Source of the DNA: Nitrospira sp.
Lineage (GTDB): Bacteria; Nitrospirota; Nitrospiria; Nitrospirales; Nitrospiraceae
Assembly: GCA_024998685.1 (NCBI GenBank)
Contig: JACOEH010000019.1
Coordinates: forward strand, 1-64,000
Length of the DNA: 64,000 bases
Direction of reading: 5' to 3'
Shown here: piece by piece, positions 2,112 to 11,211 of the stretch
Position numbering within the stretch: the first letter of the stretch is position 1
How the letters are laid out: the number at the start of each line of letters is the position of its first letter
Notes under the pieces: generated by a model
What the model was told of the DNA's origin: nothing
The model's database searches: none
Seen by the model: the letters and a program-made list of their open reading frames with translations, nothing else
Made by a program: the position numbers and the translations under genes

Positions 2112-3962
2112 ATGGCGAGTGAGCGAATCAATAGTGAATGGAAACCCCTCGTCTACACGGACGGATATCTCCCGCTGGAAGATTACGGGTTGATCGGAGA
2201 TGGAACGACCGCCGCGCTGGTGGGCCGTGACGGCAGTATCCCATGGCTCTGTGTGCCGCGATTCGATTCTACGCCGCTGTTTTGCGGCATCCTGGATGCC
2301 CGACGGGGCGGGACGTTCAAGATTGCGCCGGAGGGTCATACAGAGTCGAGGCACTACTATGAGCCGGATACCGCCGTCTTAGTGACCGAAATGCGGACCG
2401 CCTCCGGCACCGTACGGCTGACGGACGCCATGTTGTTTCGGTCCGGCGCCGATCTCAGGGAAGACGTGCTGGCCGGACGACAAGAACTCCTGCGCCATGT
2501 CCATGTGGTGCGCGGGCGCGTGCGCCTCAGAATTACAATCGAGCCAAGAGGCGGTGCGACATTTGAACCGCGCGGCGACGGTCTCCGTATACGCTGTGTC
2601 GATCAGGATCAGCCGGATCTCCAGTTGTGGGCCGGAGTGTCACTGAGGGGTTCGGATACGATCGTCGAGCTGAAAAGCGGCGACCGGCTGCCGATTCTCG
2701 TTCGTTGGGGCGGCGAGCAATTCCATCATCATCCTTTGGCTCCGAGCGAACGATTGACCGCTACGCGTAAGGCCTGGCGCCGGTGGGCCGCGCTCGTGAA
2801 GTATGTCGGGCCGCAAACCGATATGGTGCGGCGGTCCGCCATCACACTGAAGCTGTTGGATCATTTCGAGAGTGGGGCCATTGTCGCTGCGCCGACGTCC
2901 TCGCTGCCGGAAGAGTTGGGAGGAGAAAGAAATTGGGATTACCGTTATGCATGGATCCGGGATGCGGCGCTGTCGGTGTACGCGCTCCAGCGAGTCGGGC
3001 TTCCCCGCGAGGCGTCCGGATTCTTGGGGTGGGTGCTCGATGCGGTGGAAGGTGAAGTAGAGAGGGAAGGGCGGCCTCGTGTGCTCTACAATCTCGACGG
3101 CCGACGCCCACCTAAAGAAGCAGTAGACTCTCATCTGGAAGGCTACCGCCGTTCGTCGCCGGTTCGGTGGGGCAATGGCGCGTCTGAACAGCGTCAACAC
3201 GACGTATTCGGCGAGATCGTCGATTGCGCCTATCAATGGACAAGGCATCACGGCGAGGTTACGGAGGCGCTCTGGGAGAAGTTACGCAGGCTGATCGATG
3301 CCGCGGAGGCAGAATGGCGCGACCCCGATCAGGGGATCTGGGAGGTCCGCACCTCCGGCCGGCGGTTCACGTACTCCGCGGCCCTCTGCCATGTGGCGCT
3401 CGACCGTGGCATACGTATCGCTGAACGGTTCGGACTACCGTGCGATCTGTCGCGCTGGAAAACCGAAGCGGATACCATCGTCCAAGCCATCATCGATGAG
3501 GCCTGGGATCCTCGGCTCAATTCATTCACGGAACATCTCGGCGGCGGTGGTCTGGACTCCAGTTTGCTGGCGCTGCCCATTCGTCGCGTCATTCCGGCCG
3601 ACCATCCCCGAATGGTGGCGACGACCGAAGCCGTCGTCCGCCGTTTGGGCGCCGGCAACGGACTGTTGTATCGCTATCGGCCGGAGGAGTCGCCGGATGG
3701 ATTGACAGGACATGAAGGAGCCTTTCTGCTGTGCAGCTTCTGGCTCGTCGACAATTGGGCAAAACAAGGGCGATTCGACGAGGCATTGGGGCTCTACGAG
3801 TCGCTCTGCGCGAGAGCCAATCCGCTCGGCCTGCTTCCCGAACAAATCGACCCATCAAGCGGCGCATTTCTTGGAAACTATCCCCAAGCGTTCAGTCATA
3901 TCGGCGTCATCGCGAGCGGAGTGGGTTTGGAGCGAGCCTCCCGAGAAAGAGGCGCGACATGA
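2112..3962 (+). CDS. Glycoside hydrolase family 15 protein (glucoamylase/trehalase-like)
   Basis: This 616-aa protein has the two-part GH15 layout: an N-terminal beta domain (about 1-240, opening YLPLEDYGLIGDGTTAALV) and an alpha/alpha-barrel catalytic domain. Family marks include ERNWDYRYAWIRDA (about residues 272-285), the region around DVFGEIVD (about 362-369), and LLPEQIDPSSGAFLGNYPQA (about 574-593), whose Glu near 577 is the expected catalytic acid/base region. GH15 enzymes hydrolyse alpha-glucosidic bonds in starch or glycogen oligomers, or trehalose. No signal peptide is visible, so it is probably cytosolic. Length is normal for the bacterial subgroup. Substrate cannot be decided. It may act with the GH57 enzyme at 55524 in storage-glucan turnover. 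No clear ribosome binding site precedes the ATG. Confidence 0.92.
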   Translation: MASERINSEWKPLVYTDGYLPLEDYGLIGDGTTAALVGRDGSIPWLCVPRFDSTPLFCGILDARRGGTFKIAPEGHTESRHYYEPDTAVLVTEMRTASGTVRLTDAMLFRSGADLREDVLAGRQELLRHVHVVRGRVRLRITIEPRGGATFEPRGDGLRIRCVDQDQPDLQLWAGVSLRGSDTIVELKSGDRLPILVRWGGEQFHHHPLAPSERLTATRKAWRRWAALVKYVGPQTDMVRRSAITLKLLDHFESGAIVAAPTSSLPEELGGERNWDYRYAWIRDAALSVYALQRVGLPREASGFLGWVLDAVEGEVEREGRPRVLYNLDGRRPPKEAVDSHLEGYRRSSPVRWGNGASEQRQHDVFGEIVDCAYQWTRHHGEVTEALWEKLRRLIDAAEAEWRDPDQGIWEVRTSGRRFTYSAALCHVALDRGIRIAERFGLPCDLSRWKTEADTIVQAIIDEAWDPRLNSFTEHLGGGGLDSSLLALPIRRVIPADHPRMVATTEAVVRRLGAGNGLLYRYRPEESPDGLTGHEGAFLLCSFWLVDNWAKQGRFDEALGLYESLCARANPLGLLPEQIDPSSGAFLGNYPQAFSHIGVIASGVGLERASRERGAT

Positions 3963-4337
3963 TGCTCTCATTCATTCTTTCGGCGAGACCGTGATCTGGC
4001 GGGGCGTGTGTTGGTGCCGTCCTTCGCGCATTTGATCCAAGCCGACAAGCTGCCTTCCGTGCCGACCACCACAGGCCCTTACGAGAATATGTCGCTGGAA
4101 GCGGAGGCCCCGCCGGAGAGGGGAATGAACACATCGTGCTCATGCAAGCGGGATAATCTCTTCTATCGAGGACAAGTTGTCTGTTCAGGCAATATTTCAA
4201 GCAATCACGCCGTCTGATGAGAGCAGAAAGTGCGGTGCTTTCATGCGAGGACAACAATGGGACGGTATTCATTCGAGGAATCGATATTGCACACAGCTAA
4301 GTTTACATGTCAGCGTCTGAGGGAAGGGGAGGGAGTC
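3963..4337 (+). other. Intergenic region, no supported gene
   Basis: This 375-bp stretch after the GH15 gene holds short open frames only (for example 4008-4217), without ribosome binding site or recognisable motif. It ends in the purine-rich leader of the first slp-like gene. Confidence 0.35.
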
Positions 4338-4534
4338 ATGAAGCGCACAAGTCTTTCGTTGAGCATTGCCCTGTTGTGCCTAGTTGCAAGCGCCTGTCAG
4401 AAGGATGTGATTCCCGATCGGTTGGAAGGCCGCGTCGATCGAGATCTCCGATATTCCGACATCAAGAGCAATCCAGAAGCTTATCGAGGAAAGCTTATGC
4501 TGGCAGGCGGCAAGGTATTGTCGGCAAAGCGGAC
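4328..4534 (+). repeat. Direct repeat, copy 1 (207 bp, identical to 4959-5165)
   Basis: By base-by-base reading this block is identical to 4959-5165 at an offset of 631 bp. It covers the ribosome binding site and first ~65 codons of the first slp-like gene. Identity stops abruptly at both ends. Confidence 0.95.
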
Positions 4535-4898
4535 TGAAGAGGGGACAAGGCTTGAGGTGTTGCAGATTCCGCTGTCCGGAGATCTGATCCCCACCGGGAA
4601 AGACACAGAATCCAAAGGCCGGTTCATCGTCCTCGATCGCAACAGCAATCAGGTACCGGATCCGGCTGTGTTTAATGACGAGAATAGACGTGTGACGGTC
4701 GTGGGGGAAGTACGGGGCATGACCACAATTCAGATCGTCGACGATATCAAGCAGCAAGTTCCTGAGCTGGCCATCAAACACATCACGGTCTGGGATTGGG
4801 ATCATGTGAATAGGGGCTATGGTCCATATGCCGGCTTCGCGGCCCCCTCTGGATGGAAGGGATACTCGGGGCACTACGGATATCCCTATTATTGGTGA
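4338..4898 (+). CDS. Slp-family outer membrane lipoprotein, copy 1
   Basis: The start at 4338 follows GGAGGGAG and opens a lipoprotein signal (MKRTSLSLSIALLCLVASAC), so the mature 186-aa precursor would be lipidated on the Cys. The body matches Slp-type lipoproteins: an N-terminal (V/I)IPD motif, a SDIKSNPEAYRGK segment, strands around GGKVL and RLEVLQIPL, and a C-terminal WDWD followed by a Tyr/Gly-rich tail. Slp proteins are starvation- and stress-related outer membrane lipoproteins of unclear mechanism. The first 65 codons are nucleotide-identical to the next gene while the rest has diverged. A third paralog lies at 36255. Confidence 0.88.
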   Translation: MKRTSLSLSIALLCLVASACQKDVIPDRLEGRVDRDLRYSDIKSNPEAYRGKLMLAGGKVLSAKRTEEGTRLEVLQIPLSGDLIPTGKDTESKGRFIVLDRNSNQVPDPAVFNDENRRVTVVGEVRGMTTIQIVDDIKQQVPELAIKHITVWDWDHVNRGYGPYAGFAAPSGWKGYSGHYGYPYYW

Positions 4899-4958
4899 AA
4901 CCCGGTACGGCAGAGTCGGTTTATTACATGCCAGACGGTCGAAGTGTCCAAAGGAAAC

Positions 4959-5165
4959 GGAGGGAGTCATGAAGCGCACAAGTCTTTCGTTGAGCATTGC
5001 CCTGTTGTGCCTAGTTGCAAGCGCCTGTCAGAAGGATGTGATTCCCGATCGGTTGGAAGGCCGCGTCGATCGAGATCTCCGATATTCCGACATCAAGAGC
5101 AATCCAGAAGCTTATCGAGGAAAGCTTATGCTGGCAGGCGGCAAGGTATTGTCGGCAAAGCGGAC
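4959..5165 (+). repeat. Direct repeat, copy 2 (207 bp, identical to 4328-4534)
   Basis: Second copy of the identical block. It includes the Shine-Dalgarno and first ~65 codons of the second slp-like gene. Sequence on either side differs between the copies. Confidence 0.95.
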
Positions 5166-5520
5166 GCAAAACGGGACACTGATCGAGGTGCTGCAGATTC
5201 CACTGTCCGAAGATCTGATGCCTACCGGGGAGGATACCGAGTCGAAAGGACGATTTGTCGTCATCGACCGTGGCGATCAGGTGTCGGATCCGGCGGTGTT
5301 TGACGATGAGAAGAGACGTGTGACGGTCGTAGGAGAAGTGCTGGGCATGACGACCATCCAAATCGACGAGGTTCAGCAGCAAGTTCCTCAATTGGCTCTC
5401 AAACATGTCACGGTATGGGATTGGGATCGCACGAGCAGCGGCTATGCACCATACTATGGCTATGGGTATCCCTATGCATGGGGATATCGTGGGTATTACG
5501 GGTATCCCTTCTATTGGTAG
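4969..5520 (+). CDS. Slp-family outer membrane lipoprotein, copy 2
   Basis: This 183-aa tandem paralog of the 4338 gene has the same start context, lipoprotein signal and Slp body. After codon 65 the two proteins differ by many substitutions (for example TQNGTLIEV against TEEGTRLEV), and this copy has a longer aromatic tail rich in Tyr-Gly (YAPYYGYGYPYAWGYRGYYG). The two genes lie 70 bp apart and are probably co-transcribed. The location is inferred to be the inner face of the outer membrane; molecular function is unknown. Confidence 0.88.
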   Translation: MKRTSLSLSIALLCLVASACQKDVIPDRLEGRVDRDLRYSDIKSNPEAYRGKLMLAGGKVLSAKRTQNGTLIEVLQIPLSEDLMPTGEDTESKGRFVVIDRGDQVSDPAVFDDEKRRVTVVGEVLGMTTIQIDEVQQQVPQLALKHVTVWDWDRTSSGYAPYYGYGYPYAWGYRGYYGYPFYW

Positions 5521-5595
5521 GGCGGCTTTTTCTCAATCGTGAGCCGTACGGCGTTTCGGAAATACAATAATCTTTCATGAGGCAAGGAGGACGTG

Positions 5596-6087
5596 ATGAG
5601 TCGGCGATCAGCAATCATCATAGCGTTGGCAATGGCCTTATCAGGCTGCCAGCACACGGGGCTCGGGGAAAGATATGGGACACCGACGATCACGAGAACC
5701 GGGGAAATAAAGGAGATCATCATTCGGGATGATGATGTATCGCCGGCAATAGTGACTGCTCATCCTGGGGATGAGATTCGTTGGATCAACCGGCAGCAGG
5801 ACGAGGCACGCGTGATCTTTCTCTTGCCGATGGAAGGACAGTTGTCCTGCCAGCGCGGCTTCGGTGGGTTGATGAGCGCGAATGAGAATCAGTATACGGC
5901 CAAGTTGCGCGCCAATGAGACGGCGAGCGTGTGTTTCAAGCACCCATCGGAAATCAAGTACGTGGTGCGCGCGAATTCCGCTCTTTCCAACGGCGAAGAA
6001 CATATCGCGGGCACGATCAACATCGGCGGCCGACAGGGCCTCTCGAACAAGGAGGACGGGGGCAAGAGAGCCCAGTCAAGCCAGTGA
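5596..6087 (+). CDS. Lipoprotein with cupredoxin-like fold, paralog of 20246
   Basis: AAGGAGG at 5584-5590 supports the ATG at 5596. The 163-aa precursor has a lipobox (AMALSGC). The body has the strand pattern of small cupredoxins (IIIRDDDVSPAIVTAHPGDE, IRWINR, then a SVCFKHPSEIKYVVR strand). The usual copper ligand set (His, Cys, His, Met) is not evident. Instead two Cys (LSCQRGF and VCFKH) are shared with the paralog at 20246, suggesting a disulfide. It follows the slp pair and is probably an envelope protein. Function is unknown. Confidence 0.75.
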   Translation: MSRRSAIIIALAMALSGCQHTGLGERYGTPTITRTGEIKEIIIRDDDVSPAIVTAHPGDEIRWINRQQDEARVIFLLPMEGQLSCQRGFGGLMSANENQYTAKLRANETASVCFKHPSEIKYVVRANSALSNGEEHIAGTINIGGRQGLSNKEDGGKRAQSSQ

Positions 6088-6127
6088 ACAGCAATGAGAT
6101 GGTAGTTTCTCTGAGGAGGGTACAACT

Positions 6128-7285
6128 ATGGCGACCTCTCAAAAGGTCGGTAATCCATTAGAGCAGCTTCCTACGTACGGACAGAGCTACTGGTTGGATA
6201 ATCTCACCCGACATATGATCGCCGGCGGCGAGTTGCAAGGATGGATTCGAGACCGTGGACTTCGGGGAATTACGGCAAATCCCACGACATTTCGCGAGGC
6301 GTTGACGAGCCGTGACTATGACCGGCACATTGAATCTCTGACGCAAGAAGGTCGATCTACGAAGGAAATTTACGAAGCATTGCTGATCCACGATGTGCAG
6401 CAGGCCTGTGACTTATTTTCTGACGTGTATCGCGAGACCGACGGTCTTGACGGATATGTCAGCCTGGAGGTATCTCCCCATCTCGCACACGATACCGAGG
6501 CCACAATGGCCGAGGCTCGACGATATGTCGAACGCGTGAATCGGCCCAATCTCTACATCAAAGTTCCAGCGACGGACGCCGGGATCCCAGCCATCGAACA
6601 ACTGCTCTTCGAGGGTGTTGCGGTCAATATCACCCTCTTGTTCTCGATTCCGAGCTATCAGGCCGTCATCGAAGCCTATATTTCCGCTCTCGAACGACGC
6701 GTCACGTCCCGTCAACCGCTGGAGACGGTTGTGTCGGTGGCGAGCTTTTTCGTGAGTCGAATCGACGTTCTGGTCGATCAATTGTTGCAGCGGCGCATTC
6801 CTCTCGGTAACGGCGGTCGACAATCGTCTGCGGCCCAATTGCAGGGCCGAGCGGCGATCGCCAACGCCAAATTGGCTTATCGGACGTTTCGACAAGCGTT
6901 CGGCAGTGATCGATGGGCTCGACTGGCGGTGAAAGGCGCGCGTGTCCAGCGGCCTTTATGGGCCAGCACCGGAACGAAGAATCCGGCCTATCGGGATGTC
7001 ATGTATGTCGAATCCTTAGTGGGACGAGACACCGTCAATACCATGCCCGAGACGACGCTGCGTGCCTTTGCCGATCATGGTCGGGTAGTCTCCGATGCCG
7101 TTGAGGCGGAGCTGGAGCAAGCGGAACTCGTCATGGTCCAGTTGGAGAAGACGGGCATCAACTTCAACTGCGTCACATGGCAGCTCGAACATGAAGGAGT
7201 GCAAAAATTCGTCGATGCCTATGATGCCGCCATGGCAGCTCTCGACAAAAAGCGAAGTCACCTTCGTCTCGGACACACGGCATGA
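6128..7285 (+). CDS. tal: Transaldolase
   Basis: This 385-aa protein is preceded by GAGGAGGG. Transaldolase marks include the N-terminal YWLDNLTR and GITANPTTF, the Schiff-base lysine in NLYIKVPATDAG (Lys145) and the VAVNITLLFS strand. The enzyme transfers a dihydroxyacetone unit from sedoheptulose 7-phosphate to glyceraldehyde 3-phosphate in the non-oxidative pentose phosphate pathway, in the cytosol. Its length matches the longer transaldolase form common in actinobacteria, cyanobacteria and Nitrospirota. GAPDH follows 19 bp downstream, so the two glyceraldehyde-3-phosphate enzymes are probably one operon. Confidence 0.95.
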   Translation: MATSQKVGNPLEQLPTYGQSYWLDNLTRHMIAGGELQGWIRDRGLRGITANPTTFREALTSRDYDRHIESLTQEGRSTKEIYEALLIHDVQQACDLFSDVYRETDGLDGYVSLEVSPHLAHDTEATMAEARRYVERVNRPNLYIKVPATDAGIPAIEQLLFEGVAVNITLLFSIPSYQAVIEAYISALERRVTSRQPLETVVSVASFFVSRIDVLVDQLLQRRIPLGNGGRQSSAAQLQGRAAIANAKLAYRTFRQAFGSDRWARLAVKGARVQRPLWASTGTKNPAYRDVMYVESLVGRDTVNTMPETTLRAFADHGRVVSDAVEAELEQAELVMVQLEKTGINFNCVTWQLEHEGVQKFVDAYDAAMAALDKKRSHLRLGHTA

Positions 7286-7304
7286 TGTTGAGGAGGAGAT
7301 ATCG

Positions 7305-8318
7305 ATGATGAAAGTGGCCATCAACGGTCTCGGACGAATCGGCCGGGCGACGTTCAAAATTATGGCGAACCAGCCGGGACTTGAGTTGGTGGCGATCAAT
7401 GATCCGGCTTCTCCCGACGATTTGGCCTACTTGCTCAATCACGATACGGTGTATGGTCGCTATCCTATTCAGGTAAAAGCCGATCCGGATGCGATTGCGA
7501 TGGCGGACAGAAGGTATCCCGTTTTTGCGGAACGCGACCCGCACCGTCTTCCATGGAAGGAGCTGGGGGTCGATGCGGTATTTGAGTGTTCGGGGAAATT
7601 CAACACGAAGGCCGCGTTGTCAAAACACCTTGAGGCCGGCGCCAAGCGGGTGATCCTGTCGGCGCCGGCCAAGGATGAAGATATTCCGACCGTCATTTAT
7701 GGGGTGAACGCGTATGACGAGAAGGCCGGGCCGATCTTATCGTGCGCCAGTTGCACGACGAATTGCGTGGCGCCGATCGTGGAAATCATCGACCGGCGGC
7801 TCGGGTTACAAAAGGCGGTCATGACGACGACACATGCGTACACGGCCAGTCAGGCATTGGTAGACGGACGACATAAGAGCAAGCGTCGAGGGCGGGCGGC
7901 CGCGGTGAATCTTGTGCCGTCTGTCACCGGCGCAGCGGTCGCAACGACACGCGCGTTGCCGAACCTCACCGGGCGATTTCAAGGCGCGGCCGTCAGAGTG
8001 CCGGTCCCGATTTGTTCCCTTTCCGATATCGTGATGGTGACGGAACGGGAGACGAGTATTCCCGAGGTGAACGACATCTTTTTGGAAGAGGCGCGGAGCG
8101 ACCGGTATGCCGAAGTACTGGGAGTGACGGAGGATCCGATCGTATCCTCCGACATCATTCAAGATTCGCGTGCGTCCATCGTCGATGTCGATATGACGCA
8201 GGTCGTCGGCGGCAATCTGGTCAAGGTGATGAGTTGGTATGACAATGAGTGGGGGTACGCCAGCCAAATGGTTCGTCAGGCGGTCTCGATGGCGCTCATC
8301 GTGCCGGTGGAGGATTGA
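7305..8318 (+). CDS. gap: Glyceraldehyde-3-phosphate dehydrogenase, type I
   Basis: The start at 7305 (or the adjacent ATG at 7308) follows GAGGAGG. The 337-aa product begins with the NAD(P)-binding INGLGRIGRA and carries the catalytic Cys150 in SCASCTTNCVAP, the downstream TTTHAYT, and the C-terminal SWYDNEWGYASQM. It oxidises glyceraldehyde 3-phosphate to 1,3-bisphosphoglycerate in glycolysis, or the reverse in the Calvin cycle or gluconeogenesis. Coenzyme preference cannot be fixed by eye. Cotranscription with the transaldolase is likely. Confidence 0.97.
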   Translation: MMKVAINGLGRIGRATFKIMANQPGLELVAINDPASPDDLAYLLNHDTVYGRYPIQVKADPDAIAMADRRYPVFAERDPHRLPWKELGVDAVFECSGKFNTKAALSKHLEAGAKRVILSAPAKDEDIPTVIYGVNAYDEKAGPILSCASCTTNCVAPIVEIIDRRLGLQKAVMTTTHAYTASQALVDGRHKSKRRGRAAAVNLVPSVTGAAVATTRALPNLTGRFQGAAVRVPVPICSLSDIVMVTERETSIPEVNDIFLEEARSDRYAEVLGVTEDPIVSSDIIQDSRASIVDVDMTQVVGGNLVKVMSWYDNEWGYASQMVRQAVSMALIVPVED

Positions 8319-8391
8319 CGCCGCCGTGGATCGCATGACGAATCCGTTGCTCCATCCTCCCTGATGGGTGGACTTCTTCTTGAGCACTGCG

Positions 8392-11073
8392 ATGAAAACT
8401 TCAAGGAAATTGCAGCAATATCGGAAGAAGCGGAATTTTCTGCACACCACCGAACCACGCGGTGGCCGCCTTCCCTCACAACCCGGACCTGCGCTGCGTT
8501 ATGTCGTTCAAAAACACGCCGCCAGGCGTCTTCACTATGACTTTCGACTGGAGCTCGACGGGACCTTGAAAAGCTGGGCGGTTCCCAAGGGACCGAGCCT
8601 CAATCCCTCCGATAAGCGGTTGGCCGTGCACGTCGAAGATCATCCGATGGAATATGCCGATTTTGAAGGCATCATTCCCCCACGGCAGTACGGCGCCGGC
8701 ACCGTGATGGTCTGGGATCGAGGACAGTGGATTCCCGATGGAGATCCAAAGGCGGCTTATGAGAAGGGACACCTTAAGTTTAGACTGGCGGGGCAAAAGC
8801 TGCAGGGGCGCTGGACCTTGGTGCGGATGGGCGGAGCGCGCAATCGGGAGGAAAACAACTGGTTGCTCATCAAGGAACGTGACGAATCCGCCCGTACGGC
8901 AACGGCCATCGATTCAACGGCCACATTGTCGAACAGCGTGAAAAGTGGACTGAGCATGGATGAAATCGCCACAGGTCGGCCGGCGGAGTGGCATTCGAAT
9001 CGAGCGACACATCGGAGTGCCGGATTTATTCAAAAAGAGTCAGATAGAACGATACATCGGCGAGGCAGTCAACAATCCCGTCTCAAAATCGAGCGAGGAG
9101 CTGGAAAAACATCCTGCCCCGAATGGATAAAGCCGCAACTGGCCACGCTGGTGGATGAAGTCCCCAAGGACAAAGGCTGGCTGTACGAGCTGAAATACGA
9201 CGGCTACCGCATGCTCTGTCGGATCAGCAACGGGGCCGCAGAGCTGTTTTCCAGAAACGGACGGGAATGGACGGCGAAGTTGGCGGACCATGCCAAGGCC
9301 GCAGTCGGCTTGCGCGTCAGCAATGCCTGGCTCGACGGCGAACTCGTGGCGCTTGCTCCGGATGGAACGATGAATTTCCAAGCGCTGCAAAATGCGTTCG
9401 ATCGCGCGAAGCTCGGCCGGCTCGTCTATTTCGTGTTCGATCTTCTCTTTCTCGATGGGAACGATCTGCGCGGGATGCCGCTGCATGAACGTAAGCAAAG
9501 ACTGTCGGCGCTGCTGGCCGGACAACCGGAAGACGGTCTCCTGCGTTACAGCGACCATATTCGAGAGGAAGGCCGCACCGTCTTCGAAACCGCCTGTCGC
9601 CAAGGCCTGGAAGGACTGATCGCCAAGCAAACGGACAGTCGGTATCTTTCGGGACGCAACCGCAATTGGGTCAAGTTGAAATGCCGGCGCCGTCAGGAAT
9701 TTGTCATCGGCGGCTTCACCGATCCGACCGGTTCGCGACGGGGGTTTGGTGCATTGCTGCTCGGCGTGTATGAGGGAAAGGGGAACTTGGTCTACGTGGG
9801 ACGAGTCGGAACCGGGTTTTCCGAGGAACAACTCTCTCGATTGCATCGTGCCTTGCGATCGCTTCAACAACCGCAGCCGGCATTCATGAAGCCCCCGACG
9901 GGTGGAGAGGCCAAGGGTGTACACTGGGTGAAGCCGGAATTGGTGGCCGAGGTGAGATTCGCAGAATGGACGCAAGAAGGGCTCCTCCGTCAAGCGTCGT
10001 TCGTGGGCATGCGTCACGACAAACCGGCCGATGTCATCGTGCGTGAATCCCCCGCACATGTGCCGGCGAGTCGGCTGACGGCCGATCGACGAGACGACGA
10101 AGCAGGTCTTAGCCGGAACAACGGTTCCTCCCGTGCCCGTCGGATTCAATCTCCAAACGGAACTCAGAAGCGTACCGCGACAACGACGGTGGCGGGTATG
10201 AGGATCTCGAATCCCTATCGAGTGTTGTTTTCCCACGACGGCATCACCAAACTGGAGCTCGCGCAATTCTACGAGCGCATCGCGGATTGGATTCTCCCGC
10301 AGCTGCGAGGGCGTCCATTGACGCTGGTGCGTTGTCCGGACGGCCACGGCAGCGGCTGCTTCTATCAGAAACACGTGACGGATCAGGTCCAGGAGGCGAT
10401 TGATCGCATTGAAGTCGAGGAAGCGGACGGCCCCGCTTGCTACATGGTGGCGAATACACCTGCCGCCTTGGTTGCGCTCGCGCAGCTGGGCGTTCTGGAG
10501 TTCCATACATGGGGTGCCATGCAGGACCGGCTGGATCGGCCGGACCGGATGATTCTCGATCTAGATCCGGCGCCCGATGTGCCCTGGCATGAAGTCGTTG
10601 AGGCGGCACTTCTCATAAGAACATTGCTTGATGAATTGAGCCTGGCGTCTTTTGTCAAGACCACCGGAGGAAAAGGGCTGCACATCGTGGTTCCATTGGA
10701 ACGCCGGCACTCATGGGACGAGGTCAAACAATTCGCCAGATCTTTGGCCGGACATCTGGTGCGAACCCTTCCAGCGCGCTTTACCGACAACATGTCGAAG
10801 AGGAGGCGTAAGGGAAGGGTCTATCTGGATTATCTCAGAAACGGTCGAGGTGCGACCGCAGTGGCCGCCTATTCGACGCGCGCCAAACCGCGGGCGCCCA
10901 TTTCCGTTCCGCTGACGTGGGAGGAGTGCTCTCCTGAGTTCCGTTCGGATCAGTTTACACTGCATAATATCGAGGAACGATTGTCACGACTTACCCAAGA
11001 TCCTTGGGGCGAGTATGCCAAGGTGCAGCAGCACTTGACGGCGGACATGAAGCGACGTCTCGCCGGCCGTTGA
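8392..11073 (+). CDS. ligD: DNA ligase D (phosphoesterase-ligase-polymerase) for non-homologous end joining
   Basis: Three domains are visible in order: an N-terminal 3'-phosphoesterase (about 1-170; RRLHYDFRLELDG and YGAGTVMVWDRG), an ATP-dependent ligase (about 240-560) with the adenylated lysine in ELKYDGYR (Lys268), and a C-terminal primase/polymerase (about 600-893; MILDLDPAPDVPW and KTTGGKGLHIVVP). This is the order found in Pseudomonas LigD. I chose the ATG at 8392 (893 aa) over a GTG at 8368, because homologs start near the KLQQYRKKR segment. LigD repairs double-strand breaks with Ku; no Ku gene is in this window. Confidence 0.95.
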   Translation: MKTSRKLQQYRKKRNFLHTTEPRGGRLPSQPGPALRYVVQKHAARRLHYDFRLELDGTLKSWAVPKGPSLNPSDKRLAVHVEDHPMEYADFEGIIPPRQYGAGTVMVWDRGQWIPDGDPKAAYEKGHLKFRLAGQKLQGRWTLVRMGGARNREENNWLLIKERDESARTATAIDSTATLSNSVKSGLSMDEIATGRPAEWHSNRATHRSAGFIQKESDRTIHRRGSQQSRLKIERGAGKTSCPEWIKPQLATLVDEVPKDKGWLYELKYDGYRMLCRISNGAAELFSRNGREWTAKLADHAKAAVGLRVSNAWLDGELVALAPDGTMNFQALQNAFDRAKLGRLVYFVFDLLFLDGNDLRGMPLHERKQRLSALLAGQPEDGLLRYSDHIREEGRTVFETACRQGLEGLIAKQTDSRYLSGRNRNWVKLKCRRRQEFVIGGFTDPTGSRRGFGALLLGVYEGKGNLVYVGRVGTGFSEEQLSRLHRALRSLQQPQPAFMKPPTGGEAKGVHWVKPELVAEVRFAEWTQEGLLRQASFVGMRHDKPADVIVRESPAHVPASRLTADRRDDEAGLSRNNGSSRARRIQSPNGTQKRTATTTVAGMRISNPYRVLFSHDGITKLELAQFYERIADWILPQLRGRPLTLVRCPDGHGSGCFYQKHVTDQVQEAIDRIEVEEADGPACYMVANTPAALVALAQLGVLEFHTWGAMQDRLDRPDRMILDLDPAPDVPWHEVVEAALLIRTLLDELSLASFVKTTGGKGLHIVVPLERRHSWDEVKQFARSLAGHLVRTLPARFTDNMSKRRRKGRVYLDYLRNGRGATAVAAYSTRAKPRAPISVPLTWEECSPEFRSDQFTLHNIEERLSRLTQDPWGEYAKVQQHLTADMKRRLAGR

Positions 11074-11211
11074 AAAGTCCTCCGGCTTAGTTGCCCGCGA
11101 TGTAATCTCAGGAGATCGGCTGCATGGTACTCGCGAATGCGACAGTCCCGCCCAATTCATAAGTACCGATGAGCCGCTCTAGGTATAACCCTAGTTTTTA
11201 GCGGGGCCGGT
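11074..11211 (+). promoter_or_regulatory. Upstream region of the kinase gene with a CTAGG-N6-CCTAG inverted repeat
   Basis: Bases 11179-11194 read CTAGG-TATAAC-CCTAG, a perfect 5-bp inverted repeat with a 6-bp spacer, ending 18 bp before the ATG at 11212. The same motif occurs at 20793-20808, with one mismatch at 33141-33156 and 45574-45589. It may be an operator or promoter element; this is inferred from recurrence only. Confidence 0.35.

Follow-up and report, generated by a model that had tools for sequence, protein, structure and literature searches.

Recent gene conversion as the probable origin of an identical 5' block in two old tandem slp genes of Nitrospira

Two tandem genes encoding Slp-family lipoproteins, copies A and B, were found to share an identical 5' block of 207 bases in the window, i.e. 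the whole analysed stretch of 64,000 bases, which forms the beginning of contig C28 in a 4.83 Mb draft Nitrospira genome of 105 contigs. The arrangement is very probably the outcome of an old tandem duplication, followed by a recent, lineage-specific intergenic gene conversion of the 5' thirds of the two genes, which would be identical as the result of a recent overwriting of one copy by the other in this part. Comparison with related genomes demonstrates that the duplication is old, that the identity block is specific to this lineage, that orthology is preserved outside of it and that an independent conversion took place in a relative assembled as one contig. The features discussed are collected in Table 1.

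Table 1. Position of the slp pair, its neighbours and the tracts of exchanged sequence, in window coordinates
Feature	Position	Strand	Remarks
Glycosyl hydrolase family 15 (GH15) protein, upstream neighbour	2112..3962	+	PF00723; its end lies next to the pair in L052 too
Probable conversion tract, copy A	4328..4534	+	Exact identity, dS 0 over 65 codons, tree incongruence
slp copy A, Slp-family lipoprotein of 186 aa	4338..4898	+	PF03843, E 2e-25, 89.4 bits; 3' part orthologous to copy A of L052 and L082
First part of the block	4338..4450	+	1 mismatch (4382) in 113 coding bases to G001_1 (L039/L053), slp gene of G001
Swapped segment, copy A	4535..4578	+	B-type base at 4/5 diagnostic sites; normal from 4579
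Spacer between the copies	4899..4958	+	Orthologous to the spacer of L052 and L082
Probable conversion tract, copy B	4959..5165	+	Exact identity, dS 0 over 65 codons, tree incongruence
slp copy B, Slp-family lipoprotein of 183 aa	4969..5520	+	PF03843, E 2.2e-29, 102.2 bits; 3' part orthologous to copy B of L052 and L082
Swapped segment, copy B	5166..5209	+	A-type base at 5/5 diagnostic sites
Small lipoprotein-like protein, downstream neighbour	5593..6087	+	No Pfam match; syntenic in L052 and L082
Transaldolase family protein, downstream neighbour	6128..7285	+	PF00923; syntenic in L052 and L082

The two occurrences of the block match at 207 of 207 bases, the base adjoining each end being mismatched, while the second-longest exact direct repeat of the 64 kb window measures 21 bases; no exact inverted repeat of at least 20 bases was detected in the same sequence. 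The block contains a purine-rich ribosome-binding region (GGAGGGAGTC), both start codons (4338 and 4969) and the signal peptide with its lipobox cysteine, its coding part amounting to 65 full codons plus 2 bases. On its 3' side 266 of 352 aligned coding bases are shared by the two copies (75.6%), with in-frame indels, and the regions upstream of the two genes align weakly. The synonymous divergence between the copies (NG86) is 0 over codons 1-65, versus 0.95 in the remainder. The description given in an earlier note, made from the letters alone, is thereby borne out, as concerns the exact 207 bp identity, the divergence of the rest of both genes, synonymous sites included, the differing flanks, and the coverage of ribosome binding site, signal peptide and about 65 N-terminal residues.

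Both proteins score far above the curated cut-off of the Pfam Slp model (22.5 bits) and carry a signal peptide with a lipobox cysteine (MKRTSLSLSIALLCLVASAC, read by eye), followed in each by Gln, not Asp. By these sequence features they belong to the Slp outer membrane lipoprotein family PF03843; an outer-membrane location and induction by starvation or acid would be predicted for them. Ten Slp matches were counted in the host genome, the A/B pair included; four other slp genes showed 35-42% protein identity when copy A was used as query.

When 79 genomes of the genus were searched at the DNA level, 14 of them, including the window's own, produced matches, and the four relatives found on named contigs are all Nitrospira; the comparison covered one genome per species, and two relatives are metagenome bins. 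The whole pair was found in the same setting in two other genomes. The first, G074 (MAG GZL_ISSM_2_bin.53), carries on contig JAICUC010000072.1, to which loci L052 and L084 both belong, the end of the GH15 gene, slp A, slp B, the small protein, transaldolase and GAPDH, in this order; the second, the single-contig genome G080 (locus L082), has the same set of genes minus GH15. Their DNA identity to the window over positions 6100-11100 is about 93% and 88%, respectively. The presence of the whole pair in both genomes indicates that the duplication is old, and the orthology of the spacer that the tandem arrangement is old as well. In G001 a single slp gene is located at the corresponding place, near a GH15 remnant, with a second family gene elsewhere, and in G041, a one-contig Nitrospira genome, two adjacent, more diverged slp genes occupy positions 3717-4859 of locus L087. 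A broken slp gene lacking its middle part was observed at about 4001-4354 of locus L044 (contig C19) in G010, a genome with several copies of the family.

The 3' parts of the two genes correspond one-to-one to those of the relatives. The final segment of the alignment gives 123 of 124 matching positions for copy A against copy A of G074 and 117 of 124 for copy B against copy B, versus 89 of 124 for A against B, so the pair predates the split from G074 and G080. These data contradict a recent tandem duplication followed by rapid 3' divergence, which the adjacency of an identical 5' block and diverged 3' parts could suggest; since the trees described below and the synonymous divergence past the block also oppose it, this explanation was rejected as exceedingly improbable.

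Within the block the relationships differ. Copies A and B each have 80-82% identity to either copy of G074, and identity to this genome, evaluated per 50 bases, is 72-84% in the block versus 90-98% at both outer ends of the region. Trees were built on an alignment of 19 of the 21 extracted family genes, from which G041_a and G041_b were omitted as more distant and the fragments in G010 C19, G017 C1 and G012 C3 were left out. In the tree of codons 1-65 the window copies W_A and W_B join (support 89), with G001_1 next (69), and K_A joins K_B (91). In the tree of the remainder the three A copies are split from all other genes (100) and the three B copies join (79); beyond approximately codon 67, the copies of the different species cluster by type, A with A and B with B. 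A permutation test, which took in 7 of the 19 aligned genes, found the longest A-B matching run to span 68 of 199 polymorphic sites, or 31 of 72 when silent sites alone were used, and in both cases none of 10,000 shuffles contained a run as long. The pair of G074 served as a negative control: its longest run covers 4 polymorphic sites and 9306 of 10,000 shuffles did as well.

The conflict between the trees and the lack of a block in G074 indicate that the identity block is not an ancestral boundary. An ancestral boundary, shared by sister strains, had been named in the earlier note as evidence against its reading; at the level of sister species, G074 is without the block and G080 has a tract placed differently. 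The claim that an old duplication was followed by gene conversion, or by a partial copying event of recent date, holds, as the 3' orthology is old and the block occurs solely in this genome. Three features described below go beyond that reading: the swapped segment past the block, the mosaic origin of the block and the independent event in G080. Two of the features that characterize intergenic gene conversion are present: over a bounded tract the paralogues are closer to each other than to their orthologues, silent sites included, and the duplication, as judged from the syntenic pair and from the one-to-one correspondence of the 3' parts with those of G074 and G080, is older than the homogenised tract. 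Selection alone might be thought to preserve a 5' part which holds the secretion signal and the ribosome-binding region, but silent sites are identical as well, with dS 0 over 65 codons, and the G074 pair varies freely in the same stretch, where its copies are identical at 41/57 and 116/140 positions in two segments. Being contradicted on both counts, selection as the sole cause was rejected, its probability being negligible.

A second tract was identified in G080, whose copies are identical at 137 of 140 positions after the signal peptide, versus 42 of 60 in the segment before it, and at 53 of 57 in a segment further downstream. The longest run, of 30 sites, was not equalled in any of 10,000 shuffles, and the run of 15 sites obtained from silent positions only was equalled in 131. 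The tract appears to derive from a separate conversion event, differently placed from the block of the window. No comparable sharp tract was found by eye, in steps of 45 columns, in six other pairs of the same family (G010_11/G010_59, G017/G052, G012/G001_2, G001_1/G001_2, K_A/K_C and K_B/K_C).

Since G080 is a single contig, its tract counts against an assembly cause for tracts of this kind. The same bears on the block of the window, for which it could be argued that the assembler collapsed similar stretches and wrote one 5' part into both places, given that the host assembly is a draft and that the word length of the assembler may be below 207 bases. However, tandem repeats allow a single path, A then B, and flanks, spacer and 3' parts follow the order seen in the relatives; true copies about 75% alike would have no long words in common, when a collapse presupposes near-identity; and the swapped segment described below is located outside any long shared word. 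An artefact is therefore considered very improbable.

The sequences adjoining the block were analysed at diagnostic sites, i.e. those at which the A copies of G074 and G080 agree with each other and differ from the B copies of both. At the five sites directly past the block (4541, 4548, 4549, 4551 and 4560) the two copies of the window carry each other's bases (Table 1), with one exception in copy A, where the fifth site is neither A-type nor B-type. From 4579 to the stop codon both copies show their own type at 32 of the 39 diagnostic sites, and the other 7 give a mixed picture; swapped bases are seen at none. The swap is most simply accounted for, on the thin basis of five sites, by a reciprocal exchange adjoining the tract; a succession of two one-way conversions is an alternative. 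Copy B has A-type bases at four scattered later sites (4652, 4658, 4673 and 4691 in A numbering), which implies a history more complex than a single event.

As concerns the origin of the sequence, the block was found in exactly two places of the host assembly when a donor was searched for in the same genome, and a plasmid search with the region gave zero matches. The first part of the block is nearly identical to a gene of G001 (Table 1), while the best matched stretches elsewhere show about 84-87% identity between the window and G001. The likeness ceases further on, with nine mismatches in 4451-4481 and 10 in 4451-4517, and the step of columns 135-180 is closest to the B copy of G074 (0.87); the block is therefore a mosaic. 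The two genomes G074 and G080 are 86-90% identical to each other in the segment 60-203 and 65-73% in the first 60 bases, a distance mostly as their kinship suggests. Together with the low identity of the block to G074, set against about 93% over 6100-11100, this indicates that, on balance, the departure probably arose on the side of the window. Import from another Nitrospira lineage is a possible source of the block, as is a lost third copy.

Separate acquisition by A and by B of one 5' segment, through homologous recombination with another Nitrospira lineage and without any transfer from one copy to the other, would agree with the single mismatch to the G001 gene over the first 113 coding bases, given the lower identity of the matched stretches elsewhere. 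Yet past 4450 the block is not G001-like and A still equals B; moreover, identical edges would be required twice from one unsampled donor. Two independent imports, judged highly unlikely, were rejected on these grounds. As to the direction of the conversion between the copies, the block itself resembles neither of the orthologues. Likeness to G001 extends past the block in copy B only, up to about 5201, with 4 mismatches in 5113-5201 versus 11 in the equivalent stretch of A, and B as the donor and A as the recipient would for this reason be weakly favoured.

The following course of events is proposed. A tandem duplication long ago generated slp A and slp B, about 630 bases apart. One copy may then have taken up a sequence whose source was either a different Nitrospira lineage or a paralogue since lost, and intergenic gene conversion, by recombination of A with B, would lately have made the 5' thirds identical. 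The agent would most likely be ordinary homologous recombination between direct repeats, presumably dependent on RecA. The 5' edge of the tract is situated where close likeness of the two upstream regions ceases, and may reflect a decay of homology ahead of the ribosome-binding region; the 3' edge falls within homologous coding sequence. The copies may have traded the neighbouring segment of 20-45 bases during this event or one adjacent to it.

According to a broader reading, rather unlikely as a whole, the pair would consist of a common front end and separate tails. Repeated conversion would re-spread over both copies a 5' module made up of the translation start, the export signal and the N-terminal domain, at times from other Nitrospira species, and the Tyr/Gly-rich C-terminal tails would be held apart by their divergence and diversify as two functions. 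An old duplication followed by a recent conversion of the 5' thirds is the preferred explanation.

The region upstream of copy A has features of its own. Over window positions 3951-4330 its identity to G074 is 26-62% per 50 bases, and the stretch 4251-4300 is nearer to G080 (75%), which suggests a separate exchange history. At 4277-4291 the sequence GGAATCGATATTGCA displays a GG-N8-TTGC pattern, which resembles a sigma-54 -24/-12 promoter. The pattern occurs 61-111 bases upstream of 6 of the 21 extracted family genes, including copy A of all three genomes with the tandem pair, and is missing upstream of all three B copies; as it has 20 occurrences on the + strand of the window, the putative promoter is to be taken as a lead.

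On the scale of one pair of 560-base genes, the locus is a clear natural example: two relatives expose an old duplication, a recent conversion, an exchange from copy to copy and a probable import between species. It also provides a practical warning, as whole-gene trees of slp in Nitrospira blend several histories; the general view of gene conversion is unchanged. A limited literature search retrieved no paper on slp gene conversion in Nitrospira.

Among known systems, the tuf genes of Salmonella are far more alike than these slp copies, which are about 75% identical outside the tract, are in tandem and feature a swapped segment beside the tract. In both systems recombination homogenises part of two paralogues within the bounds of shared sequence; in the tuf study, conversion is described as starting anywhere in the gene and being bounded by the gene limits, with mismatch repair shortening the tracts and a walk modelled to extend on average about 500 nt to each side (PMC5485169). 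Recurrent concerted evolution of prokaryotic paralogues has been reported for 26 genes, in a study whose main text does not contain the word "lipoprotein" (PMC6053082). As in those cases, so far as they are presented there, paralogues within a species are repeatedly more alike than orthologues; unlike them, the slp genes are homogenised in part only and their 3' parts stay distinct (PMC6053082). Several Slp-family lipoprotein genes per genome are also known in the same phylum, in Leptospirillum and Nitrospira marina, for which horizontal transfer was invoked, and a link of Slp to acid resistance has been proposed in other bacteria (PMC7231039). In the sections of that work available, those copies, unlike the present ones, are located in different genomic contexts and are treated by whole-gene trees, conversion of tandem copies not being among the cases (PMC7231039). 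The class of process is well known, and the slp pair is a new instance of it, with a few instructive extras.
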